Positions 27,673-44,663 of a DNA stretch of 64,000 nucleotides are shown piece after piece. Where the stretch lies: assembly GCF_036689815.1 (NCBI RefSeq), contig NZ_JBAHUR010000013.1, forward strand, positions 40,192 through 104,191, written 5' to 3'. The notes below the pieces were generated by a model that saw only the letters and a list, made by a program, of their open reading frames with translations, did no database searches and was not told the DNA's origin. The position numbers were made by a program, and so were the translations under genes. How positions within the stretch are numbered: the stretch's first letter is position 1; each line of letters begins with the position of its first letter. This stretch comes from Magnetovibrio sp. PR-2. GTDB lineage: Bacteria; Pseudomonadota; Alphaproteobacteria; Rhodospirillales; Magnetovibrionaceae.

Positions 27673-27687
27673 TGATTTGTTGTTGTT

Positions 27688-28725: not shown

Positions 28726-28775
28726 GCCCTCCGAAGGCAGAGGTCGTGAGTTCGAATCTCGCCGGGTGCGCCATT
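28726..28775 (+). repeat. att site 2 (tRNA-Arg 3' fragment)
   Basis: An exact 50-base copy of the tRNA 3' half through CCATT, without the 5' half, so it is not a tRNA gene. It marks the right end of element A and the left end of segment B. Confidence 0.93.
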
Positions 28776-28802
28776 CAAAAGCCCCGAAAACCGGGGCTTT
28801 TG
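28776..28802. terminator. Rho-independent hairpin after att site 2
   Basis: CAAAAGCCCCG (28776-28786) pairs perfectly with CGGGGCTTTTG (28792-28802) around a five-base loop. A terminator is expected directly behind a tRNA, so it may have served the tRNA when segment B was the adjacent DNA. Confidence 0.85.
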
Positions 28803-29162
28803 GCCGTTTTAGGGGCTGATTTCAGATCACCTCAAAATGCCCGGAAGTGCCCCTCGAAGAACCCAGAAACACAGCGTCCAGCACCCTCCAGATACTTTGA
28901 ATAGTATGTACCCCCAAACGAAGAGGTTTTGGGCCAGCTAGGAAGGGTGTTTCTGTTTATTTAGCCCGCCCTAGTCTATATACATCTGATGTTGATTGGA
29001 CAGGATGTACTGCGTCTTCATGGGCAAATGCACGTTTTTCAGAGCAGATTGTAAAAGCGACCAATGAAGCTGTTGACCTATCACTACAAAGGGCGCGCGC
29101 TTCGGCTGTGATGGTCCTATGAAAGTGTTTGACGCTTGAACGGGGCGCGCCATACTTAAGGC
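28803..29162. other. Intergenic region
   Basis: About 360 bases with only short, unsupported open frames. It must hold the promoter of the gene at 29163. I see no repeat or RNA fold beyond the hairpin just upstream. Confidence 0.4.
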
Positions 29163-29774
29163 ATGATCAATGCACGGATCACTCGGTTCATACACCTGTC
29201 GGTCGCGGGCGCTTGGGCGGCTGCGGTTCTGTGCGGTTCTGTGGACAGTGCTTTTGCAGACACAGCGCACAATTGCCGGGCCCAGAGCGTGCACGCAAGT
29301 TGGCTAAAAGCCATCAACGCCAAAATTGCAAAAGCGAAGCAAAACAATCCGAATATTGATGTGTCCGGCTATTTTCAAAAACGCGACCGTGAAGTCGTTC
29401 GCCACGAACAAGCCCACCTCGCCGCGGCATGCGAGTGGGGATTGTCCATTCACTATCTGAAAACACGCTATAAAGGTCAGGTGTATCGCACTGCCGGGTG
29501 TACCCGTGTTCGGGGCGATGCCCCTTGGCAAATTGCATATCTCAGCGCGCTCGCACCATTGGCGGAGGGCATAGAGCCTTCGCCCTATGACCGCCGTATC
29601 GCAGAGGCCACAAGCCGTCTTTTACGTTCGAAACGCGACCCTTGGCAGCAGGTCGGGCTTTGTCCGGCCGCAGCGAAGGTCAAAGCTTATCTTGAACACA
29701 GAGGGGATGGGGCTGTTAAAGTTCCTCCTGGCAAAATTCCCAAAAGCGGGCCGCGCATCATTTACGGGAATTGA
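29163..29774 (+). CDS. Exported SprA-like putative zinc metalloprotease
   Basis: A 203-residue protein with a signal peptide (cleavage near AFA-DT, about 33). REVVRHEQAHLAAA (about 78-91) is an HExxH zinc site in the context seen in SprA-like putative metalloproteases. A third ligand cannot be assigned by eye. The C-terminal quarter is basic and proline-rich. Substrate and role are unknown. AAGG precedes the ATG closely. Confidence 0.6.
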   Translation: MINARITRFIHLSVAGAWAAAVLCGSVDSAFADTAHNCRAQSVHASWLKAINAKIAKAKQNNPNIDVSGYFQKRDREVVRHEQAHLAAACEWGLSIHYLKTRYKGQVYRTAGCTRVRGDAPWQIAYLSALAPLAEGIEPSPYDRRIAEATSRLLRSKRDPWQQVGLCPAAAKVKAYLEHRGDGAVKVPPGKIPKSGPRIIYGN

Positions 29775-29856
29775 AGGTTCTGCATTGGCGAGATAAAATG
29801 CGATGGAACACGCGCTAAGGTGTGAGGATCGCAAACCCCACCATTAAGGCACCACC

Positions 29857-30477
29857 ATGACCGATACACCATCTGTCCGCCGCCCCGTTTTGGGAACTTT
29901 GATGTTGATCGCAGGTTTGCTGTGTCTGGGGATCAGTGCGGTGTTGTTGGTGAAAAGCCACTTCGGCCCCTTTTTTGTGGTCGAAGGCCACATCAATGTG
30001 GCGGCGACCATGCAACAAGGCGGCACGCGCCTGCGCGGTGGGGGCGGGGATGCGGTGGTGATCCTTTTAAAAGAAGACCTCACCCCAACGCCTTACCCGC
30101 CGGAATTTTCCCTTACCCTGTCGTTGAGCGGATCGGAAAGTTTCCACATGGCCCAAAGGCTGCCCCGGGGAACAGCGGTGAAACTGTTCATGGATGGAGA
30201 TGATCTGCAAGATGCTTTGACGTACGCACAAACCCGCCACGCCACGGAGCAGTCGGGCCAGGTGTATTCAGGCTTTGGCTTTTGGCAGGTGGAGGGTTTG
30301 GTTCATCTGCATAAAATTGAGTGGATGGAAAACGGAGACATCGTTTCCGCACACCGCACCTTCACCGCCATTTGGTTTTGGACTGCCTTTTTGGTCATCA
30401 TTGGGTTTGCGTTGAGTGTGGAAGGCCGTGCACACCTTGTTGGGAAACCTGTGTCGCCGGATGACAACGCCCCCTAG
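29857..30477 (+). CDS. Hypothetical membrane protein
   Basis: A 206-residue protein with two membrane helices (about 12-32 and 167-188) flanking a roughly 130-residue, probably periplasmic, beta-rich domain. I cannot name the family. Codon use is host-like. Its stop overlaps that of the convergent gene at 30474 by four bases. Confidence 0.7.
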   Translation: MTDTPSVRRPVLGTLMLIAGLLCLGISAVLLVKSHFGPFFVVEGHINVAATMQQGGTRLRGGGGDAVVILLKEDLTPTPYPPEFSLTLSLSGSESFHMAQRLPRGTAVKLFMDGDDLQDALTYAQTRHATEQSGQVYSGFGFWQVEGLVHLHKIEWMENGDIVSAHRTFTAIWFWTAFLVIIGFALSVEGRAHLVGKPVSPDDNAP

Positions 30478-30761
30478 GTTCCGTCTGCGCCACCCGGCTG
30501 ATAAAAGCCATAGACATAATTGGACAGTTCCACGGCACAAAACACAACACACCGCTCACCATCGCGAATTTCCACAGGCGTGGTTTGATAGGTCTGGTCC
30601 GGATACTGGGGGTGATGAACTTCCACGCGCGGCCCATCCAAGCGATGCCATTTGTGCGCCCAGACGTTTTCAACGCCGCCCAAGCGCAAAGGCTCCCCTT
30701 CCGAAACAATCGCCACATACGGCCAAACGACCAAATCGCCCAAAACGAAACCTTTCAACAT
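30474..30761 (-). CDS. Small hypothetical protein
   Basis: A 95-residue, beta-rich soluble protein (MLKGFVLGDLVVWPYVAIV…). No family recognised. It has convincing codon use and a compact, balanced composition. The stop overlaps the convergent membrane-protein gene. Confidence 0.6.
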   Translation of the reverse strand: MLKGFVLGDLVVWPYVAIVSEGEPLRLGGVENVWAHKWHRLDGPRVEVHHPQYPDQTYQTTPVEIRDGERCVVFCAVELSNYVYGFYQPGGADGT

Positions 30762-30863
30762 GTTCTGACTTCGACTTAGTCTAGCACGAATTGGACGCGC
30801 TCTTTAAAAGTCCGCTTTTGACCAATAATGACTGTTCAGCTGGCGAGCATGCGGGCACATAAT

Positions 30864-30891
30864 TTGACATTTCAATAAATTTCGAAATAAT
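30864..30891 (+). promoter_or_regulatory. Sigma-70-type promoter and likely ArsR operator
   Basis: TTGACA (30864-30869) and AATAAT (30886-30891) are separated by 16 bases. The perfect palindrome ATTTCGAAAT (30879-30888) overlaps the -10 box, where an ArsR-type repressor would block polymerase. The arsR start lies about 50 bases downstream. Confidence 0.7.
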
Positions 30892-30943
30892 AGCGTTAAT
30901 CCGTTTTTGTTTGTTACTCCTGCCGACAAGGTGTGCCGTTTTG

Positions 30944-31288
30944 ATGAAGTTATCCGTATTTCAAGCCACGCAAATTCTTTCCGGACTTGCGAACGAAATG
31001 CGTCTTGAAGTCTTTCGGAGCTTGGTTGCACGCGGCGGCATGTCCGCTGGCGAGTTAGCTGAAGAACTCGGTGTTAGGGCTTCAACGCTATCCTTTCATC
31101 TCAAAGACTTGCGCCATGCGGGTTTAGTATCCAGCCAAAAGCAAGGGCGGCAAGTCATCTATGCCGCGAACTTTGACAACCTCAATGATCTATTGAGCTT
31201 CTTGGTGGATGACTGTTGTGGTGGTCGGCCTGAGCTGTGTATTCGCACTGTCGAGTCCACAAAAAGCTGCTGCGACAAAACGGCATAA
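30944..31288 (+). CDS. ArsR-family metal(loid)-sensing repressor
   Basis: A 114-residue winged-helix protein (LSGLANEMRLEVFRSLV, then ELGVRASTLSFHLKDLRHAGLV). The recognition-helix region lacks the ELCVCD site of E. coli ArsR. Cysteines lie instead at the C-terminus: DDCCGGRPELC and SCC, a pattern of C-terminal As(III)/metal sites in other ArsR proteins. It probably autoregulates through the palindrome over its promoter. It is followed 253 bases later by the rhodanese gene. Arsenate reductase or efflux genes are not present. Confidence 0.88.
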   Translation: MKLSVFQATQILSGLANEMRLEVFRSLVARGGMSAGELAEELGVRASTLSFHLKDLRHAGLVSSQKQGRQVIYAANFDNLNDLLSFLVDDCCGGRPELCIRTVESTKSCCDKTA

Positions 31289-31541
31289 GGGATTTCGGTT
31301 TATAAAAACGGTGTCTTTCAAATCTAAAACAAAATGAAATGAGGTTTGGTGGTTGCACAAATCCATTTGCCCGTGGCGATATTCATTTGGCGCATGATTG
31401 TCCCGATGCAGCTGAAGGCCGACTTCAATACGCTCACCGTGCAGGAACGTAGGGGTGCAAATTGTGAATAAAACCAAACGTTGGTACATGACTGTGCCAG
31501 TTTAACAGGTAAATTAATGACTATTGGGAGGATGTGTTGTG

Positions 31542-32489
31542 ATGTTGCTGAAAGAAATGACATGGATCAAAAAAGCTGTTTTTGCGCTTTTGGCTCTCAT
31601 GGCTGTGATGGGGGGGCAAGCCTCTGCCGATACCGGGGACGTGTTGGTGGACACAGATTGGCTCGAACAGCACATTGACGACGACAATTTGGTGATTTTG
31701 GAAGTCCGTTATCACCCGCACCGATATTATACCATTGGCCATATACCTGGGGCCGTACAGGTTCAACGCTTTAAAGACCTTGGCGATAATGATGGTCAAT
31801 CCATCATGTTATTTCCAGACAAGCCTGCCTTTGAAAAAACCCTGAGAAGCTGGGGCGTGAATGACAACTCATCAATCGTTATTTATGATGATTCACGTTC
31901 TGCATTGGCATCACGGCTATATTTCCTTCTGGACTACTATGGCTATGATATGACCCAGGTGAAGGTATTGGATGGCGGTACTGTCGCCTGGCAAAGTTTT
32001 AATGACTTGGAAACAGATAAGGTCGAGCCTAAGCGTGGGACTGTCACCCTTAAAGAGGCACGCTCTGAATTGAGTGTTGAGTGGACCGGCGTTTACGACC
32101 GGGTTGTTTCACAACGCGATACCCAAATGGTCTTGCTGGATGCACGTCCGTCGACCCACTACAGTGGCAAAGAAATTGTTCATGCTGTGCGGGGCGGGCA
32201 TATTCCAGGTGCAATCAACATTGTTAGCCTCAGCGGTACAGAAGGTGAAACCCAGTTGTGGAAAACGGCTGAAGACCTTGCACAAATGTATGCGGACATT
32301 CCGAAAGACAAGACCGTAATTGCATACTGCCACGATGGTTTCCGCATGAGCTTGGCTTACATGCAGCTCAAGGCAATAGGCTACAAGGATGTTCGTTTGT
32401 ACAACGGTGGCTGGGGGCATTGGGGCAATGAATTGTCCTTACCCGTTGTCGAAGGTCGCGAACCGTTTGACGACACATTTAAGTTGTAG
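31542..32489 (+). CDS. Exported two-domain rhodanese (sulfurtransferase)
   Basis: The 315-residue protein has a signal peptide (to about QASA, 30) and two rhodanese domains. The first lacks a Cys in its loop (IYDDSRSALAS). The second has the active-site loop CHDGFR (VIAYCHDGFRMSLAYM), the usual SseA-like layout. It should transfer sulfane sulfur to a thiophile in the periplasm. The ATG at 31542 is chosen because GGGAGGA lies nine bases before it; a TTG six codons upstream sits inside that site. Adjacent ArsR may control it. Confidence 0.9.
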   Translation: MLLKEMTWIKKAVFALLALMAVMGGQASADTGDVLVDTDWLEQHIDDDNLVILEVRYHPHRYYTIGHIPGAVQVQRFKDLGDNDGQSIMLFPDKPAFEKTLRSWGVNDNSSIVIYDDSRSALASRLYFLLDYYGYDMTQVKVLDGGTVAWQSFNDLETDKVEPKRGTVTLKEARSELSVEWTGVYDRVVSQRDTQMVLLDARPSTHYSGKEIVHAVRGGHIPGAINIVSLSGTEGETQLWKTAEDLAQMYADIPKDKTVIAYCHDGFRMSLAYMQLKAIGYKDVRLYNGGWGHWGNELSLPVVEGREPFDDTFKL

Positions 32490-32881
32490 TCGGCTACATC
32501 AATGATGATGGCGTTAGATAAATCCAAAGTGGCTCTTTTCACTTCATTGTGTAGAGAGCAGCTTTGAATATTCTGGCTGAGGCTTTCTGGTGTGGCTTTT
32601 TCCTCAATTGTGCCATGGCCAGTCTGATTCAGTCCCGTTTAATCCCCGATATTCGAAAAATGGCACAACAGCACCCGAACAACGAGTTGATTTAGTTACA
32701 CTTTAATTCGCTCTCTCACCCTCCGAAGGCAGAGGTCGTGAGTTCGAATCTCGCCGGGTGCGCCATTTTTTAGACCTGAAAGTGCCTTCCCCAGCCCTGC
32801 TGCTCGTTCGGGTGGCGCAGAAGGTTTTTGCTTGTGCAACAATCACCGCAACACAACAGCTATGGGTATGGAGAAAACCAT
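32490..32881. other. Intergenic region containing att site 3
   Basis: Roughly 390 bases between the rhodanese and globin-like genes. Apart from att site 3 and the globin promoter region I see only short unsupported frames. Confidence 0.5.
32719..32770 (+). repeat. att site 3 (tRNA-Arg 3' fragment)
   Basis: An exact 52-base match to 16038-16089, including five T after CCA, without a 5' tRNA half. It is the right boundary of the whole tandem insertion and probably the displaced original tRNA end. Confidence 0.93.
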
Positions 32882-33235: not shown

Positions 33236-33459
33236 AGCGCAGCCTTCGCATAAAAAAGCTGACCCGGCGCGCGTCTCCGGCTCTGAGTTGGACCCGTAAT
33301 TGGAGCCATTATCTCAACCTCGCCAACCACCGCACGCTCCATCAAGACATCACCAATGCCATGATCAAGTAGACGTTTTTTTAGTCTTCGTGAGAAAAAA
33401 ACGCTCTCGACCCTCCATAGCCTTTGCAGTTTGGTTTTTTCAAGCGTGGAGGCTTTCAT
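33232..33459 (-). CDS. Possible small basic protein
   Basis: A 75-codon frame that exactly fills the gap between the globin-like stop (four-base overlap) and the start of the 33458 gene (overlapping ATGs). The product is basic with a short beta-like middle (GEVEIMAPITGP). The fit suggests a real gene, but no family or ribosome site supports it. It could be a chance frame. Confidence 0.3.
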   Translation of the reverse strand: MKASTLEKTKLQRLWRVESVFFSRRLKKRLLDHGIGDVLMERAVVGEVEIMAPITGPTQSRRRAPGQLFYAKAAL

Positions 33460-34123
33460 GTTTTGCTCCTATTCCGTTCCCATTTGGCCCTCAGTTTTGG
33501 CGCTTTTGCTGGTTTTTGGTCTCATCCCCACGGCAAACGCCAGTTGGCAATCGCGTGTGTTGTTAATCGGTGTGGACGGCGGCGGCGCCATCCCGCGTCA
33601 CAACCAACCCTTTGTGGATTTGACCGACGCGTTGGCTGAACGGCTCAAAGGCTCCACCTACGTCATCTATACCGAAAACAACGACAAGCCTTTCAAAAAG
33701 AAGAACCGCAATCCACGCAATCTGCGTCAAACCATTTCGGCGGTTGAAAAGCTCCCCGACAACCGGTTGGACTTTGCCGTGTTGTTGACCGCCAAGCGCG
33801 AAGTGGGACGCCGTGCAGATCACACCCAATTTTCCCTAAAGGTCATCGCCCGCTTGATCGATCCCTTGGACGGTCGGGTGCTGGAAACCATCAAAGTGAA
33901 ATCTCAGACGCTACACATCCCTAAAAAGCGGTGTGGCCCGCCGTGCATGCGCAACGCCACATATGAAGCCAATGACACCATCGCCCCGTTTTTAGCCCTG
34001 CGCCTGACCGAAGAAATTGAAGAGCGCGAAGACGATATGCGCGCCGACTATGACGACGGCGACGACTTTTATGAATATGACGAAGTCGATGATCTTGATC
34101 TGCGTCGCGACTTGAACGGATAA
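33458..34123 (+). CDS. Exported protein, first gene of the envelope operon
   Basis: A 221-residue protein with a signal peptide (cleavage near ANA-SW, residue 28). The mature part is alpha/beta with strands VLLIGVDGGGA and LDFAVLLTAKREV, two Cys (KRCGPPC) likely forming a disulfide, and a long acidic Asp/Glu/Tyr-rich C-terminus. No family recognised. GGAGG precedes the chosen ATG. It opens a run of 14 same-strand genes with short or overlapping junctions. Confidence 0.75.
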   Translation: MFCSYSVPIWPSVLALLLVFGLIPTANASWQSRVLLIGVDGGGAIPRHNQPFVDLTDALAERLKGSTYVIYTENNDKPFKKKNRNPRNLRQTISAVEKLPDNRLDFAVLLTAKREVGRRADHTQFSLKVIARLIDPLDGRVLETIKVKSQTLHIPKKRCGPPCMRNATYEANDTIAPFLALRLTEEIEEREDDMRADYDDGDDFYEYDEVDDLDLRRDLNG

Positions 34124-34134
34124 GGAATGGACCC

Positions 34135-34575
34135 ATGATTCACGGTGTACAAAACAATGCCATGGCGGAAATCGCCTTAGCGCTGGCCATGGGGTTCTTT
34201 TCCATCATGGTCTTGACCTTGGTGTCCATGGGCAGCGGCCTAACCCCCGCCCAAAGCGTAGACACCGCCCACAGCCCCGGCGTTCAGGTGCAACACTCCG
34301 AGCCCACAAAATCACAAGACCAAAGTGCCCAAGAAGACATCAAAGTCTCCAGCGCGGACTTAGTCATCTATCACGCCGGGCGTTATCTGGATGCGGATTT
34401 GAAACCCTTAGACCCAGCGTCTTTGGCCGGACGTGAGAAAGTCGTTCTCGCCGTTGACGGCAACTTGCCCATGACCGAAGCCTTAAAAGCGCGCGAAGGC
34501 GTTCCGGTCGGCAACCTCACCATCGCACCTTTAGACGCACGGTGGCAAAAAGCCCTGAAGGAGACGTCATTATGA
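34135..34575 (+). CDS. Single-span membrane protein, ExbD-like in plan
   Basis: A 146-residue protein with one N-terminal membrane helix (about 10-33), a flexible 40-residue linker, and a small periplasmic domain (DLVIYHAGRYLDADLKPLDP… EKVVLAVDG). This plan, short N-in tail, one helix and periplasmic domain, is that of ExbD/TolR subunits, but I do not see the conserved Asp in the helix. It could be the ExbD-equivalent of the ExbB-like gene at 40619 or a separate anchor. Its stop overlaps the next ATG (ATGA). Confidence 0.6.
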   Translation: MIHGVQNNAMAEIALALAMGFFSIMVLTLVSMGSGLTPAQSVDTAHSPGVQVQHSEPTKSQDQSAQEDIKVSSADLVIYHAGRYLDADLKPLDPASLAGREKVVLAVDGNLPMTEALKAREGVPVGNLTIAPLDARWQKALKETSL

Positions 34576-35357
34576 TCCGCGTTTACCCCCGCTTTATCAT
34601 CTTAGGCCTGCTCACCCTCGCCGTTTGGATTGTGGGTATTGCGCCCGCTTTTGCCCTGACCCGCGTCGAAGTCAAACGTTTGGTCGTGGAAACCGCGCTG
34701 GATAAAAACGTGCCGCCGTCTTTGGCCTTAGCTGTCGCAAAAGTCGAATCCGACTTTAACGCCCACGCGCTCAGCCCCGCAGGGGCGCGCGGCGTGATGC
34801 AGATTATGCCAAAAACCGCACAAGACGAATTTGGTGTGGCCGAAGACGATTTGTGGGATGCGCAGACCAACGTGCGTTTGGGCGTGCGCTTTCTCAAAGA
34901 ACTGCATCACATGTACGGTGAGCGTTGGGAACTGGCGCTATCGCACTACAACGGCGGCTCACTGAATAGAAGCGGTGCCGACGCCCATCCCCATGCCTAT
35001 ACGCGGCGCTATGTCAAATCGGTGATGAAATGGCAACAGGTCTACACCGAACAAAACGCCGTGTGGCAAGTGCTGTCCGACCAGACTGAAAACGTCCGCG
35101 TAGCGAAAGCCGCACCGAAAAGCGATGTGCCAAAAGATGTGCCAGAAGATGTGCAAGAACTTGATATCGTGGAATGGGAATCGCATGCAGAAGACGTCGC
35201 GTATGAACACGACGAATGGGAAGTGATCGACCTCGAACCACGCCCGCGCCATCGTGATGTTGCCTTCGACCGCCGCCCGCCGCCGCGCCATCACGCCAAA
35301 CGCCGCGGACCGGTCCGTGTGTTCCGCGGCTCACACTTTCCCAAGCATTGGCACTGA
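34572..35357 (+). CDS. Lytic transglycosylase (SLT domain)
   Basis: A 261-residue exported protein: hydrophobic signal or anchor (about 8-28), then an SLT lysozyme-like domain. Glu59 in VAKVESDF is the catalytic acid, followed by the family's SPAGARGVMQIMP and ALSHYNGG motifs. It cuts peptidoglycan to make 1,6-anhydroMurNAc ends, a common way to let envelope machines cross the wall. The last 90 residues are charged and proline/histidine-rich. The start overlaps the preceding stop. Confidence 0.93.
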   Translation: MIRVYPRFIILGLLTLAVWIVGIAPAFALTRVEVKRLVVETALDKNVPPSLALAVAKVESDFNAHALSPAGARGVMQIMPKTAQDEFGVAEDDLWDAQTNVRLGVRFLKELHHMYGERWELALSHYNGGSLNRSGADAHPHAYTRRYVKSVMKWQQVYTEQNAVWQVLSDQTENVRVAKAAPKSDVPKDVPEDVQELDIVEWESHAEDVAYEHDEWEVIDLEPRPRHRDVAFDRRPPPRHHAKRRGPVRVFRGSHFPKHWH

Positions 35358-35419
35358 CGTTTGATTTGACATGAACCAGGACGTAAACTAGGCACCAGGC
35401 CAACAAGGGGAGCGCCTTC

Positions 35420-36877
35420 GTGAACACTGCGATCAGCACACTCGCCCAATCCGGGGGACGTGACACCTTAATCCAGGATTTTCGCGCCGTCGCCGAAGCC
35501 ACCACGCTCAGTGGTGCGCCGCGCTATAGTGAGACACCGACCTTGATGTGGCTGGCCAAGTTCGTCACCGGGGCTGCAGGCGGTCCCAACAAGGACGCCC
35601 CGCTTTTTGAACTCTGTCATCTCATAACAGCACTGAAACTCGGCTTCGGTGGCGGTGCAGATTTGCGTGCTGAGTTCTTCTTAGGCCTCAACCCAGCCAC
35701 ACCGGCGGCGTATAAATCCTTCTTTGACGACGCCGTTGCTGGAGAAGGTCTCACTGTAGAAGACGAGCAAGTCACCCTCAACTCAGGCCCGGCCCCGTTC
35801 TCCATCCGTTATGGCCGCATGCCGCGTTTGGTCGCCTTGTTCGAATTCTTAGCCGGGCTCGACGCCTTTTCGTTTTTTGGCGCGTTCAACGACATCCTCG
35901 ATGAGTTGGAACAAAGCCCAAATCTTGCCGCCATCAAAGCCGCCGCCAATCAATTGTCCAGCCGCATGCGCCACTATCGCCTGCAACACTTAGCCTCTGC
36001 CGAAAGCGATGGGAAATTCACGACGGTGTATTCTTTTTTGCAAGACCGCAGTCCACAAAATGCCTTCCAAATCGACGACGCGGCAATTTTTGAGTTCTGG
36101 GCCCTCCATAATCAACAAAACGATTATAAGGGATATAGAACCGTGTTCGATTTGTTTTTCAAATTCATGGCCGCGATGGACGAAGTCACGTCGCGTCGCG
36201 CTGCCCAAGACGCAGGCGTATTGGGTGCCGACCGCGAAGGCGGAGAGCTGGACATTGGCGAAGACAGCATTGACGTCTTGTCCCCAAATTGGGAAAGCCC
36301 TTTGGACGTCTTCGAAGAACCGCCCTTATCCGACATCAAGTTTTTCAAAAAAAGCACCGAGTTGAAACCCCTTGAGACTTTGATGACCTATGGGCCAAAG
36401 GTTCAGTCTTTGGCTTTGGCTTTTTTGCGCTATGAAATTTTCGGATTTTTGCAATCGGCCATCACCAACGATTTGCAAATCGGGCGCGGCGAAGAGTCTG
36501 TGCAGAACCGGGTCCAATGCACCGATGCTGAAGCGTACACCGAACGCAAAACCACCTTTGAAACCTTAGAAGCCCATGTCCACCAACTGATCCAAGCCTG
36601 TCTGCATGTGGTCGCATCCGACACGGTCGTCGCCTTTCCGGGTATAGAGGACGACAGCGCCAAAGCGTTTAAGAAGCTCACACGCAAAGGCTTTGATGAC
36701 CGTGCCCGCGACAACGCCGATGCCTTCAAGCTGGCCGCCGATCCCTTGCTCAGTGTGCGCACGCAACTGCAAGGCCTGTTGAAGGCCTTGGATAAGCTTG
36801 ATCTTGAAACCCATTTCGATGCGGACCGCGTAGCCTTTCGCCAACAATTTAGAGCACTCTACGGAGAAGCCTCATGA
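35420..36877 (+). CDS. Large cytoplasmic protein of the envelope operon
   Basis: A 485-residue soluble protein, largely helical, with no signal peptide or membrane segment. I recognise no family. It starts at GTG with AAGGGGAG eight bases before it. Its stop overlaps the next start (ATGA), and that gene overlaps the Lon-like gene in turn, so these three are translationally coupled. It is probably a cytoplasmic component or regulator of the machine. Confidence 0.75.
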   Translation: MNTAISTLAQSGGRDTLIQDFRAVAEATTLSGAPRYSETPTLMWLAKFVTGAAGGPNKDAPLFELCHLITALKLGFGGGADLRAEFFLGLNPATPAAYKSFFDDAVAGEGLTVEDEQVTLNSGPAPFSIRYGRMPRLVALFEFLAGLDAFSFFGAFNDILDELEQSPNLAAIKAAANQLSSRMRHYRLQHLASAESDGKFTTVYSFLQDRSPQNAFQIDDAAIFEFWALHNQQNDYKGYRTVFDLFFKFMAAMDEVTSRRAAQDAGVLGADREGGELDIGEDSIDVLSPNWESPLDVFEEPPLSDIKFFKKSTELKPLETLMTYGPKVQSLALAFLRYEIFGFLQSAITNDLQIGRGEESVQNRVQCTDAEAYTERKTTFETLEAHVHQLIQACLHVVASDTVVAFPGIEDDSAKAFKKLTRKGFDDRARDNADAFKLAADPLLSVRTQLQGLLKALDKLDLETHFDADRVAFRQQFRALYGEAS

Positions 36878-37407
36878 TCACCTACACACCCAACCCCAAA
36901 GATAAAGAGGTCGCCCAAGCCGAGTTTCGCGCACTCAGCCAAGCCCAAGGCTTGATGGATGCCGAAGGCGGCGCCGTCTCCCCCAGCCGCCTGTGGGCCT
37001 ACGCCCAAAGCCAGCTCAGCGACGGCTTTGAAGATGTTTTACATGCGCTCGACCAAAACCCTGACATGCGCAAAGCTTACGGCGCCATGATCCGCAGCGC
37101 CGCCATGTACAGTTTCCCCGAAGCCATGGCCGCAGCCGAAGCGGACACCTTGCCCGAACGCGCAGGCCAAGGCTGCAAGCTGTCGCTCAAACCGTCGCGC
37201 GCGGAACAAACGCAGCTGTATTTGATCATTGAACTTGCCGATACCTCTAAGAAACCGAAGGCTTTGGTCGTTTCCGACAAAAAGGACCGCACCGCTTTGC
37301 TGACCCTGCCCCAAGCGCGCGATGGGATTATTCAAGTGATTGTGGAGAAAAATTCCGATATCGTCCGTTTGTTGAAAGATCCGAAGTCGGAGGCCTATCT
37401 GAAGTGA
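36874..37407 (+). CDS. Cytoplasmic hypothetical protein coupled to the Lon-like gene
   Basis: A 177-residue protein with a helical N-terminal half (LWAYAQSQLSDGFEDVLHALDQNP) that recalls the small helical domain of anti-sigma-like adaptors, without zinc ligands, and a beta-rich C-terminal half (TQLYLIIELAD…ALLTLPQARDGIIQVIV). No confident family. Coupling on both sides suggests a stoichiometric partner. Confidence 0.7.
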   Translation: MITYTPNPKDKEVAQAEFRALSQAQGLMDAEGGAVSPSRLWAYAQSQLSDGFEDVLHALDQNPDMRKAYGAMIRSAAMYSFPEAMAAAEADTLPERAGQGCKLSLKPSRAEQTQLYLIIELADTSKKPKALVVSDKKDRTALLTLPQARDGIIQVIVEKNSDIVRLLKDPKSEAYLK

Positions 37408-38645
37408 AGCGCATCGCCGTTCACGTCGCGACCACGGGCGGTCCTGTGCTGGTCCAGCGCATCACGCCCGAGTTCGCCGCCCAATCCATGATCTGTTTGG
37501 GCCGCACGTCCGAAGTGCTGCCCATCAGCGCGGACTATGACGACTTCGTCAAACCGGGCAGCGGCGTGATCATGCGCGAATTCGGCCCCTTTGAAGAAAA
37601 TGCCTTCCGCCTGGACGCGTCGGGCCCCATCGGCACCGGGCGCAGTTGGCAGCTGGGTGTTTATGCCGCCCACGCCATCGATCACAGCGAACATTGTGTG
37701 CTGTCTTCAGATGAAGACGCCGACACCATTTTGTGGATGACGGGCATGGTGGACTATGACTTAAACGTCAAAGCCGTGGACCACATCGCCGACAAAGCCC
37801 AAGCGGCCCAAGATCAAATGACCACGTGGCTGGCGGACGGAAAACGCGTTTTCGCCGTCGTGCCCAAGGGCAACAATCACAAAGACCTGTTGTCCAGCCG
37901 ACTGCCCGACGGGGTCGAGATTTTGCCCGCAGGCAGTGTCGAGCATGCCCTGGCCCCCTTGCATCTCTCCCAAGGCTCTGCTTCGGGGGCACAAGAAACA
38001 CAAAAGGCCAAGACCAACCGTGCGGGCTGGGCCATGTTTGGTGTCGTGGCCGCAGCATTTGCCGTGATCGTCTATAACTTGCCCGATTTTGCGTCTGAGA
38101 CGCCCACCCCACCGCCTGCGTTGGAGATCAAAGGCGACATCACCCTGCCCGCACCTGAAATCGCCGCAGAACCAAAGCCCGAAGCGGAACCGGAGCCCGA
38201 GGAAGAAGACTTCGCCCTAGAAATCTTTAACGAAGACGGCGAAGACTTGGTCTTTAACTACGGCGACCATTTGGAGTTTGCGGTTGAGATGAACCGCAAC
38301 GCGTGGCTCAACTGTTTTTATTTCCAAGCCGACGGCAAGGTCTTGCAGCTCTACCCCAATCCTTACGTCGAAGAGGTCTTCCGCTTTGAAGCGGGAGAAA
38401 CCTACGACATGCCCAGCGAAGAATTTTTCCCCTTCCAAGTCCGCTTCGCCCCGCCGGCGGGCGAAGAAGTCATCGTGTGCTTCGCGTCGGAAGAAAACCT
38501 CACCGATGAACTGCCCGAGCCCCTCAAAGGCCAGACCAAAGGCCCGCTTCCGGCCACCGTCGCCAACGACATCCCGCGCATTTTCCATTCCCTTGCGGGT
38601 GACGGTTTGGCCGTGGCAGAACTGCCGTTTGTGATCGAGCCTTAA
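37404..38645 (+). CDS. Membrane protein: Lon-like (S16) domain plus DUF4384
   Basis: A 413-residue protein with no N-terminal signal. Residues 1-190 fit the Lon proteolytic fold: a GRSWQLG elbow with Ser81, TGMVDYDLNVKAV, then IADKAQAA with Lys131, VVPKGNNHKDL, and a final VEHALAPL. Ser81 and Lys131 lie where the Lon Ser-Lys dyad is expected. One membrane helix (about 207-225) and a Pro/Glu-rich linker lead to a DUF4384 domain (about 278-362: GDHLEFAVEMNRNAWLNCFYFQADGKVLQLYPN). The S16-like part should be cytoplasmic and DUF4384 periplasmic. GTG start overlaps the preceding TGA. The protease claim is by pattern only. Confidence 0.65.
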   Translation: MKRIAVHVATTGGPVLVQRITPEFAAQSMICLGRTSEVLPISADYDDFVKPGSGVIMREFGPFEENAFRLDASGPIGTGRSWQLGVYAAHAIDHSEHCVLSSDEDADTILWMTGMVDYDLNVKAVDHIADKAQAAQDQMTTWLADGKRVFAVVPKGNNHKDLLSSRLPDGVEILPAGSVEHALAPLHLSQGSASGAQETQKAKTNRAGWAMFGVVAAAFAVIVYNLPDFASETPTPPPALEIKGDITLPAPEIAAEPKPEAEPEPEEEDFALEIFNEDGEDLVFNYGDHLEFAVEMNRNAWLNCFYFQADGKVLQLYPNPYVEEVFRFEAGETYDMPSEEFFPFQVRFAPPAGEEVIVCFASEENLTDELPEPLKGQTKGPLPATVANDIPRIFHSLAGDGLAVAELPFVIEP

Positions 38646-38726
38646 TTTTTTTTCTGCTTTCCCTAAAAAACGCGCCTAGGCCGTCCATAGCCCTCTTCAG
38701 AAACAGTTATGAAGAGGTTCGAAGCT

Positions 38727-39299
38727 ATGCCGACCCACATCAAATCCCAGAAATTCTTGAGCCGCAGCCGCGCTTTGGCTGCCGTTTTGATCTCCAGCGC
38801 GGCCTTGTCCGCGTGCGTCACCAGCCAAACCTTTGACGAAGGCATCGGATACCGCGAAGCGCGCTTCCAAGAAGTGTCCGCCATGCGCGAATTCCGCCAA
38901 TGCCGCGACGATGCGTTGGAACTGGACCGCCAAGCCCGCTCGAGCGGCGATGCCGCCAAATACTTAGCCTCCGCCCGTCTGTTGGAAAAATGTGAAGCCA
39001 GCATTGGGCCGGGTGCGGGAAGCGTCGCCAAGGAAGAACGCATGCGCGCTTACGCCTTGAGCATCCAAAACCATTTGAAAGGCGGCAACGTCACAGCAGC
39101 CCGCGTGAGCTTGGACAAGTTCAAAGTCGCCTATGTCGACATGGATCTTTATTACGCCGACGGCTCGTCCTTCATCGACACGGTTGAAATTTTGGTCGGT
39201 GCAAAAAAACCGGGTGCAACCGGGCGCTTTTCCAACGCCAATGTGAACCGTGAGCTCAAAGCCGAGCTGCGCCGTGTCAAACACTGGCAGAAACACTAA
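38727..39299 (+). CDS. Lipoprotein of the envelope operon
   Basis: A 190-residue lipoprotein: signal peptide ending in the lipobox LSAC with Cys30. The mature part is helical with two further Cys (FRQCRDDALEL, LLEKCEAS) and a TPR-like middle. An earlier ATG at 38709 is possible, but GAGG sits nine bases before the one used. The 81-base gap before this gene is the longest in the operon, so an internal promoter is possible. No family recognised. Confidence 0.75.
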   Translation: MPTHIKSQKFLSRSRALAAVLISSAALSACVTSQTFDEGIGYREARFQEVSAMREFRQCRDDALELDRQARSSGDAAKYLASARLLEKCEASIGPGAGSVAKEERMRAYALSIQNHLKGGNVTAARVSLDKFKVAYVDMDLYYADGSSFIDTVEILVGAKKPGATGRFSNANVNRELKAELRRVKHWQKH

Positions 39300-39323
39300 T
39301 CCGCGAAGCGTGAGGAGATCACT

Positions 39324-40199
39324 ATGACCCGCAGAACCTCCCTATCTCATCTGGTATTCGCTTCGGCTTTGTTGGCGACGACCGTCCTGGGCACAGCCCC
39401 CGCCCAGGCCGACAACGCCAACTGGTCGCCGCAATCAAGCGAACGTCTGGTGAAGCTCCCACCCAGCTATTTGAAAAAATCCTTGGACCACGACTTCAAA
39501 CAATCCAGCCTCGGCGAGGCCTTGGGCGAGACGGAAGAAAACATCTCGCTCAAAGGGCAAACCTTGGCGGACTTGAAACAAGCCATCGGATCCAGCAACG
39601 GCGATGTGCGCCTAGAACTGCGCCACGAGTTTTTGGCCGAAAAACGCGCCTACTTAAACATGATGACGGATCGCAACGCGTTGCGCCGCCAACACTTGGA
39701 AACCAAGCGCAATCTGTTTGAAGACATGTTGGATCACTTAAACGCACAGGAAAACCAAGGCCCCGGTGCAGAAGAGGTCATTGCAAACCAAGACGCGGCG
39801 TTTGAGCGGTTCGAGCGCACCTACGCCGATGTGGACAAAAACTTCTTCGCCACCAACATGGAACCGGAAAGCAAATACGCCCAGCAGTTCAGCCAAAATA
39901 TGCAGGCCATCGAACAACTGGTCGCGCGCATCGAAAATCACAAGATGAACGCGTCCAGTATGACTGATGACGGCCTGCCGCTTACCCGCAAAGAACACCT
40001 GCGCCGCTTGGTGTCCGACGTGCAGTCGGAACTGTCCGTCATCGAACAAGAAGAAACCATCTTGGGCTACATGGCCAAGCTGGTGGCGCTCGATGCCATG
40101 GACCTGGCCGAAGACGGCATGGATATGGAACTTGCCGACAGCGACGTCACCAACGCACTGAAACCCGCAACGTCCGTCAGCTATTTCCTCGACAACTGA
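39324..40199 (+). CDS. Exported coiled-coil protein
   Basis: A 291-residue periplasmic protein: signal peptide cleaved near AQA-DN (29), then long helices with heptad-like spacing (RHEFLAEKRAYLNMMTDRNALRRQHLETK). No Cys and no membrane helix beyond the signal. It probably oligomerises as a stalk or spacer. GAGGAGATCACT precedes the ATG. Confidence 0.75.
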   Translation: MTRRTSLSHLVFASALLATTVLGTAPAQADNANWSPQSSERLVKLPPSYLKKSLDHDFKQSSLGEALGETEENISLKGQTLADLKQAIGSSNGDVRLELRHEFLAEKRAYLNMMTDRNALRRQHLETKRNLFEDMLDHLNAQENQGPGAEEVIANQDAAFERFERTYADVDKNFFATNMEPESKYAQQFSQNMQAIEQLVARIENHKMNASSMTDDGLPLTRKEHLRRLVSDVQSELSVIEQEETILGYMAKLVALDAMDLAEDGMDMELADSDVTNALKPATSVSYFLDN

Positions 40200-40218
40200 T
40201 TTGATAGGAGACCTTGTT

Positions 40219-40617
40219 ATGTTGAAACGCTCTTTAAAAACCGTGCTGGTCGGCTCTTTCATCGTCGCCGCATTTTCCGTCGCCGCCACCGCCAAAGCCG
40301 GCACCTTGGAAAACTTAGAACGCGAACGCGCCCAGACCGTTCAGTATTTTTTGGACACCAACCTGGAACCCAACGAACGCTTAGCACGCATCGATGTGTC
40401 CAAGCGCCGCTTGATCGATATGGAACGCATGGTCCTGCGCGACAAATCCTTGCGCGGCAAAACCACGCCCATCGTGCGCCGCGCATTTTTGAACTATGAC
40501 GTGACGTTCATGGCCCATTCCGCGACCGAAAAAAATCTCACCATGGTCGACAACTGGCTGGACCAGTTTGCCGTCAGCACCGACACCTTGATGACCGCCA
40601 AAATCGGGAAACGTTGA
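40219..40617 (+). CDS. Small exported helical protein
   Basis: A 132-residue protein with a signal peptide ending at AKA-GT (27). The mature part is helical and basic (LARIDVSKRRLIDMERMVLRDKSLRGK). The ATG at 40219 has GGAG upstream; an earlier frame start would split the signal. It ends two bases before the ExbB-like gene, so the two are coupled. Confidence 0.75.
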   Translation: MLKRSLKTVLVGSFIVAAFSVAATAKAGTLENLERERAQTVQYFLDTNLEPNERLARIDVSKRRLIDMERMVLRDKSLRGKTTPIVRRAFLNYDVTFMAHSATEKNLTMVDNWLDQFAVSTDTLMTAKIGKR

Positions 40618-40618
40618 T

Positions 40619-41140
40619 ATGCGCAGAGTGCTTAACATCGCCGAAACCGGGTCGCGCTCACTCAGCTATGTTTTGGGCGGTGGCGTCATCGCCCTGGCCA
40701 TCGCGGTGGGCATGACCTCCCAAGGTCCCGACGCCATTGCCGAGTGGACCTTGGAAGTGTTCGGTGTGACCTTCATCACCTTGTTCAGCGGGCTGATCTT
40801 CGCCACGGTCTATTGCTGGACGCGCTTAAGCGACACAACACTCAGCGACAAACAGCGCAGTGTGTGGCTGGAAGCCGGACTGCACGGTGCCAACGGTGTG
40901 TCGACATTGGCGTTGACCTATACCCTGTTGGGCATCTCGCTTGGCATCGGCACCTTGTCCGAACAAGAGCTCACCCCCGCAACGGTGCAAACCGTCATCA
41001 GCCAACTCACCGATCACTTCAGCCTTGCGTTCATGACCACCGTGGTGGGCCTGCCCACGTCGGCGGCGTTGCGCGCCTTGGTGCTGATCAGCCATTCGCG
41101 CCTGGATGCCCAAAAGGAGGATGCCTCATGCGTTTCTTGA
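40619..41140 (+). CDS. ExbB/TolQ/MotA-like channel protein
   Basis: A 173-residue inner-membrane protein with four helices (about 14-32, 45-68, 97-118, 138-162). The last two, VSTLALTYTLLGISLGIGTL and FSLAFMTTVVGLPTSAALRAL, match the TM2/TM3 pattern of MotA/TolQ/ExbB subunits, whose small residues line the ion path. Such subunits use proton or sodium flow to drive a partner. Its 3' end overlaps the next gene by 13 bases. The ExbD-like partner is probably one of the single-span proteins in this operon. Confidence 0.75.
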   Translation: MRRVLNIAETGSRSLSYVLGGGVIALAIAVGMTSQGPDAIAEWTLEVFGVTFITLFSGLIFATVYCWTRLSDTTLSDKQRSVWLEAGLHGANGVSTLALTYTLLGISLGIGTLSEQELTPATVQTVISQLTDHFSLAFMTTVVGLPTSAALRALVLISHSRLDAQKEDASCVS

Positions 41141-41604
41141 TCTTTAACATCGTCGTCGTCGCCGCCTTGGCATTTTTGGTCATGGACCGCCCACAAGTCG
41201 ATCTGGCCCGCGCCGTTCCGGGTGATCTTTCCATCCCAGCCGTTGCCCAGCCCGAGCCCGAGCCCGCTCCTGAAATCGTTCAACCCCAACTCAAGCCAAA
41301 GCCCCAGCCAAAGCCCAAGCAGCTGACGGAGATGCCTGAACTCCCCCCTGCTAAAGAGGTTCCCGTGCGCGTCACCCACAAAGCGCCCCGCGACGTTTCA
41401 CCCGGGTTGACGCAAACGGCTGAGCGCATCAAAGCTGAAATCACCCAGCGTCAAAACGCACCGCTCCCCGAAGACCAAGAAGAGCCTGCCCAAACCGCAG
41501 CCGTTGAGACAAACACCTATGACAAATCCGTCAGCCGCCGCAAAGCCCTGATGGATTTAGCCAGCGACATGGAGCTCATGTTCGCCGAAAAGATGATGAG
41601 GTAA
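41128..41604 (+). CDS. Proline-rich single-span protein (TonB/TolA-like plan)
   Basis: A 158-residue protein with an N-terminal helix (about 3-20), then a Pro/Glu/Lys-rich segment (about 40-75) and a charged helical end (KSVSRRKALMDLASDMELMF). The plan suits a periplasm-spanning arm or an ExbD-like stator piece. It overlaps the ExbB-like gene and lies three bases before the next proline-rich gene. No family recognised. Confidence 0.7.
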   Translation: MRFLIFNIVVVAALAFLVMDRPQVDLARAVPGDLSIPAVAQPEPEPAPEIVQPQLKPKPQPKPKQLTEMPELPPAKEVPVRVTHKAPRDVSPGLTQTAERIKAEITQRQNAPLPEDQEEPAQTAAVETNTYDKSVSRRKALMDLASDMELMFAEKMMR

Positions 41605-41607
41605 GCC

Positions 41608-42534
41608 ATGGCGCGCCGAACCACATGGACGGGATATGTTTCCACAGGCGTGAGCGCCCTGTTGGCCGTGTGGATCTTAGCGCTGCTGATCCAGCCCACA
41701 CCACCGCAGCCGAAACCGGGCAAAACACAAGCCAAGCCTGAGGACGTGGCAAAGGCCGAGCCAGCCCCCGAACCCATTCCTGCAGCCTTGGCGTTGCCAG
41801 CACCCCCAAAACCAACACCGCCAAAGCCAGCTCCTACAAAAGGGGTTAAGCCCAAGCCCCAACCCGAACCGGTCACAGAAACTGTGCAAGAGGCTCCGCC
41901 CAAGCCCGTACACAAGGCAAAGGTTGTACAGAAATCAAAACCGAAGCCCAAACCCAAGCCCAAGCCCAAAACCCCGGCCCCCTTCGTTCCTGCGGCGGCT
42001 GATGTGGTTGAAGGGCGTACATTGCTGAGAACCTTGGAACACGGCAAAGGCCCCTTGATCGAAATCGCGTGGCCCAGTGACCGTTCCAAACACGGGCGTT
42101 TGTTCAAACACATGACCGCGTGCTTGGGCATGCGTGTGGCGGTGATGGACAACAGCTCTCACCTGTTTGTCGCCGAAGGCAAAACCGGGCAGCCTTGGGA
42201 CATCAACTTGGACCGCTACAGTGGGTTTTTGCGCCAGCCCGCAGGCTGGCTGACCCCGTTGGAACGCAACGCCGAAACCGCCATTCGCAAACACCACAAC
42301 ATGAAGTCCGTCGCGTCCGGTGTGCGCATTTTTCCGCGCCAAGTGGATGCGGCGTTGTTGGGGGGCTTGCGCAAATACATCGGCACCCATTACAGCACAG
42401 CCAAATCCATCCGCGCGCGCTACCGGTTGAACGGCACTGTCGTCGTTGTCGAAAACTTAAGCGTCGATGGCAAAGCCGTCGCCGGGCGCATCGGGCTCAA
42501 AGCCCAAACGTCCAGATGTGTATGGAGGACGTAA
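41608..42534 (+). CDS. TonB-like proline-rich protein
   Basis: A 308-residue protein with one N-terminal helix (about 10-28) and a long KP/PKP-rich stretch (about 30-125) like the extended arm of TonB. The compact C-terminal domain (about 130-308) does not show a recognisable TonB CTD motif. With the ExbB-like gene two genes upstream, a role in passing force to the outer membrane is reasonable but inferred. The repeated codons make this a DNA-level low-complexity tract. Confidence 0.75.
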   Translation: MARRTTWTGYVSTGVSALLAVWILALLIQPTPPQPKPGKTQAKPEDVAKAEPAPEPIPAALALPAPPKPTPPKPAPTKGVKPKPQPEPVTETVQEAPPKPVHKAKVVQKSKPKPKPKPKPKTPAPFVPAAADVVEGRTLLRTLEHGKGPLIEIAWPSDRSKHGRLFKHMTACLGMRVAVMDNSSHLFVAEGKTGQPWDINLDRYSGFLRQPAGWLTPLERNAETAIRKHHNMKSVASGVRIFPRQVDAALLGGLRKYIGTHYSTAKSIRARYRLNGTVVVVENLSVDGKAVAGRIGLKAQTSRCVWRT

Positions 42535-42537
42535 ATC

Positions 42538-43194
42538 ATGAAACTTTTTCAAATCGTTTGTGCGGTGAGTGTAACCCTGGGATTGGGCGCGTGCATCCCC
42601 ACCCAAGTCAAACCCGTCGAAACCGATGCCCAAGGGGCCATGCAAGCCAACGACCGCACGGTGCAGTTTCACGTGAGTGAGGCCTACTATCAAAACGCAC
42701 CCGACTGCGCCATCATCAAGCCCATCATCGGAAACGGCCCCACAGAACTGACCCGGTTTGTCGAAAAGTCTGTAGCCCGCCAGTTAACCGGCAAGGTGGA
42801 ACGGGTGATCACACCGCTCAGACGCGATCGCTTGGCGCGCAAGAACGGCTATGACTTAAGCACGCCTGCCGACTTTAAAAGTTTTGCGCGCACGCAACGC
42901 TGTGCCTACCACGTCACCATTGAGCTGCAAGGCAGCGGCGATCAATATGCTGTGATCTGGTCCGACAAACACGTCGGCGTGAAGATGGAGCTGTTGAAAA
43001 CCCGCACGGACGAAGTCTTGTGGCGCGGTGCCCACGTGGCGCGGCGCGGCGACGGCGGCGTGCCGCTTTCGCCCCTGTCGATCTTAGCCAATGCCGCCAA
43101 AGCCGCGTCGTTCAGCGCGGATACAGGTTTGGTGTATTCTATTGCCAATGATGCGGTGCGCCGTATTCTGACAACCTTGCCCGATATCCGGTAA
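42538..43194 (+). CDS. Lipoprotein of the envelope operon
   Basis: A 218-residue lipoprotein with lipobox LGAC and Cys19. The mature part is alpha/beta (VARQLTGKVERVITPLRRDRLAR… YAVIWSDKHVGVKMELL), with two other Cys. It may be anchored in the outer membrane as a partner of the TonB-like protein. GGAGGACGTAAATC precedes the ATG and the gene begins three bases after its neighbour's stop. Confidence 0.8.
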   Translation: MKLFQIVCAVSVTLGLGACIPTQVKPVETDAQGAMQANDRTVQFHVSEAYYQNAPDCAIIKPIIGNGPTELTRFVEKSVARQLTGKVERVITPLRRDRLARKNGYDLSTPADFKSFARTQRCAYHVTIELQGSGDQYAVIWSDKHVGVKMELLKTRTDEVLWRGAHVARRGDGGVPLSPLSILANAAKAASFSADTGLVYSIANDAVRRILTTLPDIR

Positions 43195-43256
43195 CCGATC
43201 TATTGGGGTTTGAGAAAAGAAACGTTAAGATATGCGTCTGAGAGGACAAAGCCAGA

Positions 43257-44663
43257 ATGATCCAGCCTTTGCGCACATTACTTTCCCTGACGTTGGCCCT
43301 TTGCGCCACGCCTGCGGTTGCAGAAACGGCAGCGGTCATCATCGGCAACTCCACCTATGGCACAAACCTGCCCACCGTTGAATATGCCGAGCGTGACGCA
43401 GATGCTATTCGCACCTATTTGATCGACGTGATGAAGGTTGACCCAGACAACATCATCGATCTGCGCAACGCCACCAAGGCACAAATGGAAACGGCGCTGG
43501 GCACCGCGACGAACCCGAAGGGCAAGCTTTGGCATTATGCCGGCTCGAAAAAAGACGACGAAGTCTTTGTTTATTATTCCGGCCACGGCGTGTCGGGTCT
43601 CAACGATCAGCGCCAATACCTTTTGCCTGCGGACGCCCTGCCGGACTTTGCGGAGCTTAATGGCTATCCGCTATCCACGCTTTACAACAACCTAAAAGGT
43701 TTCAAGCGCGCCACCGTGGTGATTGATTCGTGCTTTTCCGGATCCAGCGCAGGCGGCACCCTGTTCCCGTCATCGTCAGGCGGTGTCATCGTTCCTTTGA
43801 GCGAAGAGGTGGACGACAGCCTCACCGTGCTCACCGCTGCGGGATCCAACCAACTTGCCAGTTGGGATCACGACGCCAAGCAAGGCTTGTTCACCGAATA
43901 CTTTCTGCGTGGTGTCTACGGCGAAGCCGATGCCAACACCGACGGTGTGGTGTGGGCTGATGAATTGAAAGCCTATTTGGACAAAACCATGTCCAAAGCC
44001 GCTCGGCGTCACTTTGGCCGCGAACAAAACGTGTCCTTGTCGGGAAACTTCGATCGTGTCTTTGCCTCTTACCCGCCGGGGAATATGCCCGTGCGCCCGA
44101 AGACGATTGTTGAAGATAAAAAACCGGAGCCCCCCAAAACACAAGTTGCCACCGTCGAGCCCAAAGCCGTTGCGCCACAGGTTGACGAACCCTATGAAAC
44201 GGTTGAGCCTGCTCCTGCCTTGCTTGTCACGCGGCGCTACGGTGTCGCGATGCGCAATGCCAAAGTTTTTGAACACCCCAAAAAGGGGACGGAGATTCTC
44301 ACGTTTGTGCGCAAAGACCATAGCCTCATGCTTACAGGACGCACTAAGAACGGTAAGTGGTACGAAACCGACACCAACGGCATCATCGGCTTTATCCGCC
44401 GCGCCAATGTCGCTTTGTTGGAGGCCGGGGAGCTGGCCCGTTGGCGTGCCGCGTCCACCACCGGCAGGCTTGCGAACTACCGCGCCTATTTGCGTCATCA
44501 CCCGGACGGCTATTTCGCCCAACGCGCTGAGCGATTTATCGAACGCAACACCGTGGTCAAACAAGACGACAGCATCAACATCTATCGTGCCCCACCCCCC
44601 AGACCCAACAACAAGCGTCCGCCGCCGCCACGCCGTGATAAACCGTTATTCCCCCGTCGATAA
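43257..44663 (+). CDS. Exported caspase-family protease with SH3-like domain
   Basis: A 468-residue protein with a signal peptide (to about AVA-ET, 22). A caspase-like (C14) domain follows with the His-Cys dyad His110 (YYSGHG) and Cys159 (VIDSCFSG). After about 80 residues of linker, an SH3-like segment (RRYGVAMRNAKVFEHPKKGTEILTFV… DTNGIIGFIRRANV) precedes a proline-rich end. Export puts the protease in the periplasm or outside. It closes the operon; two weak hairpins (44775-44797, 44803-44815) follow without a T-run. Confidence 0.9.
   Translation: MIQPLRTLLSLTLALCATPAVAETAAVIIGNSTYGTNLPTVEYAERDADAIRTYLIDVMKVDPDNIIDLRNATKAQMETALGTATNPKGKLWHYAGSKKDDEVFVYYSGHGVSGLNDQRQYLLPADALPDFAELNGYPLSTLYNNLKGFKRATVVIDSCFSGSSAGGTLFPSSSGGVIVPLSEEVDDSLTVLTAAGSNQLASWDHDAKQGLFTEYFLRGVYGEADANTDGVVWADELKAYLDKTMSKAARRHFGREQNVSLSGNFDRVFASYPPGNMPVRPKTIVEDKKPEPPKTQVATVEPKAVAPQVDEPYETVEPAPALLVTRRYGVAMRNAKVFEHPKKGTEILTFVRKDHSLMLTGRTKNGKWYETDTNGIIGFIRRANVALLEAGELARWRAASTTGRLANYRAYLRHHPDGYFAQRAERFIERNTVVKQDDSINIYRAPPPRPNNKRPPPPRRDKPLFPRR

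Follow-up and report, generated by a model that had tools for sequence, protein, structure and literature searches.

A fourteen-gene operon of Magnetovibrio sp. PR-2 as a candidate ion-driven envelope motor coupled to a Lon-like protease trio

The motors MotAB, ExbBD, TolQR, AglRQS, ZorAB and SiiAB, as covered in PMC12204202, and GldLM, in PMC9389320, drive diverse jobs at the outer envelope. The latter source reports GldLM as a 5:2 motor without obvious sequence homology to MotAB, which provides a precedent. The former describes vWA force transducers, motor-coupled arms of undescribed function found beside tolQ-like genes, and its section 8 closes with the expectation that further such systems await discovery (PMC12204202). 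Here we analyze a fourteen-gene operon (g1 to g14, 33458..44663, + strand) in a stretch of 64,000 nucleotides, hereafter the window, from contig NZ_JBAHUR010000013.1 of Magnetovibrio sp. PR-2 (GCF_036689815.1), whose genome is 3.75 Mb in size. We place somewhat on the probable side of even the reading that this operon encodes an ion-driven envelope motor of the 5:2 type, with g10 as the wheel and g2 as the axle, which moves periplasm-spanning arms and is accompanied by a sensor-protease trio.

All 14 open reading frames (ORFs) of the operon lie on the + strand with junctions of -16 to +63 bases, in agreement with the compact operon described by a first-pass annotation, except that the longest gap is 63 bases rather than 81, a value that depends on start choice. 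The GC content at codon position 3 exceeds that at position 2 in 14/14 ORFs, and a chance run of ORFs is untenable because the gene set is conserved across genomes. Only g3, g6 and g14 carry a Pfam domain above the cut-off, and ten of the proteins (all but g3, g6, g13 and g14) have no meaningful Pfam match. Searches of NCBIfam with all 14 proteins and of PADLOC with ten of them (g9, g11, g12 and g13 being left out) gave nothing decisive, and full-text searches of the literature listed no paper whose title or opening abstract lines describe the gene set, a coverage that excludes most subscription papers and all preprints. The same annotation had proposed an energised envelope-spanning apparatus beyond the named systems; this is supported as a reading, as Pfam, NCBIfam, PADLOC and the literature show no named counterpart.

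Candidate wheel, axle and arms

The candidate wheel, g10 (40619..41140), is a membrane protein of 173 amino acids. Its AlphaFold2 model is confident and predicts a TolQ/ExbB/MotA fold without the cytoplasmic domain, a 6-residue linker lying at the position of that domain in TolQ, and with an additional N-terminal helix. When the model was searched against 350,542 PDB chains with Foldseek, the first 38 rows were all TolQ, ExbB, ZorA or MotA, with modest E-values and low whole-chain TM-scores. The lowest root-mean-square deviation listed was obtained with ZorA (2.5 A over 123 residues), and helical bundles tie in Z, and we regard the fold test as only suggestive of the TolQ/ExbB/MotA fold. Thr100, Thr102 and Thr140 are kept in 80/80 g10 members and were counted as candidates for the polar threonines of the pore helices, their positional equivalence being putative.

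The candidate axle, g2 (34135..34575), follows the ExbD/TolR plan, with a single membrane helix that starts with a Glu (Glu12) invariant in 50/50 members. MotB, ExbD and TolR carry an Asp at the start of the helix, whereas g2 carries a Glu, and the equivalence of the two residues is drawn from the plan, not from an alignment.

Several results weigh against a motor identity of these two proteins. At E 0.01, PF01618 was matched by 0/80 g10 members; hhalign gave 0.9 % for g10 against the motor families (88.7 % for the positive control), a search of PDB sequences with the g10 profile returned no useful match, and ungapped scans of helix motifs against 888-911 control ORFs lent no support to motor homology. 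Similarly, the g2 of the window matched no Pfam family, PF02472 included, hhalign gave 0.05 % for g2 against ExbD, and the g2 profile found nothing among PDB sequences at E 10. A sequence-based proof of motor homology was given up after hhalign comparisons with TolQ, MotA and ExbD and the helix motif scans had come up empty, and a likeness by eye of the g2 helix to that of ExbD/TolR was dropped after hhalign and the motif scans had given nothing. The ExbB-like label that g10 had received is thus not borne out by sequence but is favored by predicted structure, and the ExbD plan proposed for g2 holds as far as a single span with an invariant acidic residue, without a profile match and with Glu in place of Asp. 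Overall, the motor identity is supported but unproven.

The missing sequence matches, the low TM-scores and the tying helical bundles would suit an unrelated four-helix membrane protein, in which case the operon would be an envelope-stress regulon without a motor. We consider this quite unlikely, as the first 38 rows out of 350,542 chains belong to a single superfamily and as every true g10 in a sample of 397 genomes, described in the next section, is paired with a single-span protein whose acidic residue is invariant.

If g10 and g2 form a motor, its arms would be g12 and g11. In g12 (41608..42534), a span at residues 4-28 is followed by a Pro/Lys-rich stretch and a folded end domain at about residues 130-300, which corresponds to the plan of the TolA/TonB arms (a single span, an extended proline-rich or helical stretch and a folded end). 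The end domain is well predicted and has no good PDB match; the fold searches listed no TolA/TonB or vWA chain, which excludes nothing. The motif Ser-x3-His (SHLS) is absent from the first 75 residues of the g12 of the window and of 62/68 members, and three of the six members with it (in loci L117, L118 and L030) carry it ahead of their span. Ser12 is found in 55/68 members and Ser or Thr at position 16 in 50/68. The second arm, g11 (41125..41604), is a single-span proline-rich protein, whose place is occupied in gammaproteobacteria by a coiled-coil single-span ORF. Single spans were located with a hydropathy scan.

Recurrence and co-inheritance of the gene set

In a first survey of 80 genomes (that of the host and 79 relatives), g4 was found in 16. 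Inspection of as much as 20 kb of surrounding sequence showed that nine other genomes carry the cluster nearly complete and with its order unchanged, although the caspase gene and g1 vary in place or are absent among them. An alignment of g10 was then scanned against 84,980 species, which gave 93 stretches encoding a relative, of which the top 80 were retained and yielded 79 loci, and iterated profiles were applied to 98 loci, comprising these 79 and 19 earlier ones. Most g10-bearing loci belong to Rhodospirillales and other alphaproteobacteria, including Terasakiella and Aestuariispira, and others come from Paraglaciecola, Glaciecola, Colwellia, other gammaproteobacterial metagenome-assembled genomes and one such genome labelled Deltaproteobacteria. 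Counts of genes were taken from the 33 of the 79 loci that extend for about 10 kb to either side (long loci), all of them ascertained via g10.

The core around g10 is nearly constant in these long loci. The lipoprotein g7 (38709..39299; lipobox LSAC by eye) is present in 32/33, and the exported protein g8 (39324..40199), the small exported protein g9 (40201..40617) and g12 are each present in 33/33, with g11 or its replacement in 31/33. Outside the core, g2 and g3 are each found in 25/33, g4, g5 and g6 in 22, 23 and 22, g13 in 21/33 and g1 in 17/33. The order and strand of g7-g8-g9-g10-g12 are identical in all 32 long loci with the five genes (33 examined), and ranking the ORFs by their ends revealed no exception among the 88 loci in which g10 is joined by two or more further genes of the core (here counting g11). 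The refuting condition set by the first-pass annotation thus does not hold for the ExbB-like, arm and Lon-like genes, which recur together in other genomes.

A check was then made in an even sample of 397 Pseudomonadota genomes that included the host. Matches to g10 occurred in eight genomes, of which seven are true carriers by context; the eighth match (G380, E 1.9e-4) was dropped as no other cluster gene lies in its neighborhood. In all six true carriers besides the host, g7-g8-g9-g10-g12 are consecutive, with g11 or another ORF in its place, and g4-g6 are nearby. A search for g2 in the same genomes returned precisely the seven true carriers, always on the same contig and within 12 kb of g10, as would be expected of an axle, whose gene strictly accompanies that of the wheel. 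By comparison, g4 was found in 14/397 genomes, including all seven carriers, and two of these 14 matches are weak (7.2e-5 and 2.6e-4) and may be false. Eight long loci lack g2, and all seven of their genomes that were searched again have the gene (L069 was left out, and L094 was the control); some of these g2 sites, provided that they are on the same contig, would fall just outside the stretch retrieved. Taken together, g10 is strictly accompanied by g2, regularly by the g4-g5-g6 trio and optionally by the caspase.

Pairwise distances of g10 correlate with those of g2, the core and the trio at r 0.78-0.87 and more weakly with those of g13 (0.73), g3 (0.54) and g1 (0.36), in a comparison without an outside-gene control, such that shared descent alone could yield much of r. 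Among the scored candidates, g10 has at least 1707 relatives (clustered at 90 %) and g8 at least 631. None of 120 g10 relatives listed has a precomputed Pfam domain and almost all are named 'hypothetical', while one UniRef entry among them, from Candidatus Terasakiella magnetica, is named 'MotA/TolQ/Ex...'.

Lon-like trio, accessory genes and genomic setting

The trio consists of a large soluble protein (g4, 35420..36877), a small soluble protein (g5, 36874..37407) and g6 (37404..38645), which combines a Lon-like (S16) domain, one membrane span (208-226) and a DUF4384 domain (PF14326, 4.9e-19). Residues 1-210 of g6 align with the Lon protease domain with a probability of 93.5 % (hhalign, E 2.3e-7), which upholds the S16-like assignment made from the translation; the control comparison of Lon with a LonB-like set reached 97.2 %, ten column shuffles stayed at or below 0.24 % (0.57 % with three Lon sets), and g6 against the LonB-like set alone gave 43.7 %. 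Ser81 and Lys131 are fixed in 57/57 members and coincide, in the Lon alignment, with the GPSAG Ser and the second Lys in KEK, which we take to be the catalytic pair of Lon. Pfam found no AAA+ domain in g6. The Lon-like domain is predicted to be cytosolic, because basic residues precede the span, and the DUF4384 domain periplasmic. Searches of Pfam, NCBIfam and PDB (by profile) assigned no family to g4 or g5. The earlier suggestion of proteolytic control holds only in part, through the tight linkage of g4, g5 and g6, and control might run in either direction.

The three genes also occur elsewhere without the motor core. In the host genome itself, a second trio of this kind (locus L033 on contig C14, 92-12880) adjoins a caspase, a caspase-FGE-sulfatase fusion and a DUF4384 protein, with four ORFs of no named family and a Fic-like ORF (by eye) further on. 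Other trios lie beside SLT and GGDEF-like genes (L039, among L039-L041) or amid unrelated genes (L042, among L042-L044), and those of L039-L044 represent a wider family of Lon-like trios.

The remaining proteins are largely exported, with signal peptides and the lipoboxes of g7 and g13 judged by eye from the translations; the two lipoproteins announced by the first-pass annotation are accordingly present, as are the SLT, DUF4384 and caspase domains, matched by Pfam in g3, g6 and g14. The exported lytic transglycosylase g3 (34572..35357) matches PF01464 at 9.7e-24 and has the motifs ESDF, GVMQIMP and ALSHYNGG. The accessory lipoprotein g13 (42538..43194) is distantly GNA1162-like (PF05643, 5.8e-5, below the cut-off), and g1 (33458..34123) is an exported accessory protein. 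PDB profile searches with g1, g4, g5, g8 and g13 gave no useful match. The exported caspase-fold protease g14 (43257..44663) matches PF00656 at 9.8e-14, with the GHG and DSCFSG motifs of the C14 His-Cys dyad in the p20 fold, and SH3_3 at 0.001, below the cut-off. The caspase had been counted among the recurring set, which does not hold: its motifs occur in 5/33 long loci (8/33 by profile) and Ser/Thr kinase motifs in 4 others of the 33, and both motif counts may miss divergent members. The caspase, or a Ser/Thr kinase in other hosts, is an interchangeable add-on. Kinase genes stand beside the cluster in L114, L116 and L118 (Colwellia) and in L106 and L117 (Glaciecola); the kinase of L118 carries PG_binding_1 and FGE-sulfatase domains, and that of L106 an FGE-sulfatase domain, followed by an FHA-domain protein.

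Such neighbors raise the question of a conflict or defense system resembling Zorya, in which the motor would sense attack by a phage or rival and the trio would act with the caspase or kinase as effector. It would account for the alignment of g10 with ZorA and the weak ZorA2 match (PADLOC, E 0.0054), for the caspases, the kinase-FGE cluster (FGE or kinase members in 8/98 loci), the trypsin-like family (5/98) and the FHA protein (one locus) that adjoin the cluster, and for its patchy presence, given that two near-complete genomes in the same genus have no g4. We nevertheless consider it unlikely, as PADLOC at E 0.01 fits none of the eight submitted proteins other than g10 and the caspase, the caspase and kinase motifs are restricted to the few long loci counted above, probes of plasmids with g10 and of phages with g8 (one protein each) were empty, and the operon stands outside the neighboring CBASS island and has the GC content of the backbone.

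This integrative island (16008-32770 of the window) begins at a tRNA-Arg(CCG) gene (16008-16084) with a phage integrase at 16188, and copies of the tRNA end, of 50 bases at 28726-28775 and 52 bases at 32719-32770, suggest two tandem elements. It harbors a CBASS pair (21575-26581) composed of a SMODS/DncV-like cyclase carrying AGS_C and of a 2TM-SAVED effector, after which comes a protein with Mrr_cat and nSTAND3 that matches PADLOC PDC-S73; its second segment, left of the operon, encodes an ArsR-type regulator and then an exported rhodanese-domain protein (30911-32489). An island origin of the operon was rejected on the grounds that the attachment repeats end at 32770 and that the GC content is 0.566 in the operon versus 0.459 in the island, with 0.559-0.567 in the outer flanks. 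Comparison with the stretches around the cluster in two genomes of the genus (G002 and G003, the left side of the latter ending at a contig end) revealed no flanking gene in common except one 32 % match, and the locus has therefore probably moved. Rfam at gathering scores found only this tRNA, and promoter and terminator scans did not exceed the shuffle level.

Other neighbors recall secretion or surface motility. FlgO-like proteins lie near the cluster in 24/98 loci (L054, with a PG_binding_1 end, L071, L103 and 21 more), CsgG/FlgT-like proteins and an SLT enzyme are likewise recurrent neighbors, and 7/98 loci contain an ATPase cluster that is ABC-type by eye. A dedicated secretion or motility machine that the motor would power, akin to GldLM, AglRQS or SiiAB, is nonetheless improbable, considering that no secretin or Por/Gld component was recognized by eye among the 25 largest neighbor clusters (not all family-searched) and that the NCBIfam GldK/GldJ matches sit in the FGE domain of an optional kinase. 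A further neighbor cluster occurs in 8/98 loci, with one member confirmed as OmpA.

Proposed mechanism and comparison with known systems

For the ion-driven envelope motor that we favor, the following mechanism is proposed. A putatively pentameric g10 wheel would surround a g2 dimer, and ions traveling between g10 and g2 through Glu12 would drive the motion. The transglycosylase g3 may open the wall locally, letting the arms reach outward, so that g12 and g11 could carry the motion across the periplasm, where g12 would pull or push g7, joined by g8, g9 and, in loci that have it, g13. The outcome would be an outer membrane and wall kept in order, as by Tol-Pal, while the trio would read the periplasm via DUF4384 and signal to the cytosolic Lon-like protease domain. 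Because the host carries separate PF01618/PF02472 genes elsewhere in its genome and g4 is lacking in two members of the genus with near-complete genomes, we infer that the operon serves to maintain the outer envelope in particular circumstances.

The further step, that the operon represents a new and divergent family of ion-driven rotary envelope motors, with a Glu axle, a wheel that has lost its cytoplasmic domain, a new arm end domain and a hard-wired transmembrane Lon-like protease reporting the envelope state to the cytosol, is a tentative proposal to which we give a little less than even credence. Should this hold, the known set would gain a motor whose ion-binding residue differs, it would become clear how small wheels can be, and the mechanics of the envelope would be tied to a transmembrane Lon-like protease.

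Among the known systems, Tol-Pal shares with the operon a wheel-like membrane protein, a single-span acidic partner, a Pro/Lys-rich arm with a folded end and lipoproteins, all in one operon; it differs in that the operon has no PF01618/PF02472 match, the end domain of g12 has no good PDB match and the g12 span has no histidine, and none of the 14 genes encodes a TolB or Pal domain according to Pfam. The resemblance to ZorAB lies in the lowest listed deviation and the weak ZorA2 profile match of g10, a protein that presumably lacks the long tail of ZorA, and no ZorB, ZorC or ZorD match was seen among the ten proteins given to PADLOC. Compared with the S16 peptidases, g6 has the Ser-Lys dyad and the surrounding profile of Lon but, without AAA+, is joined via a membrane span to DUF4384. 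The vWA transducers have an arm with a vWA fold and recognizable tolQ homologs (PMC12204202), whereas no vWA chain was listed for g12. Finally, the MotAB, ExbBD and TolQR motors differ from the operon in the linker that replaces the TolQ cytoplasmic domain, the extra N-terminal helix of g10 and the Glu of g2. Since the profiles give no match and the fold comparison is no more than suggestive, we do not claim membership in the motor family, yet the predicted fold of g10 and the axle-like g2 recall the 5:2 motors MotAB, ExbBD and GldLM, and the operon would work like such a motor system.

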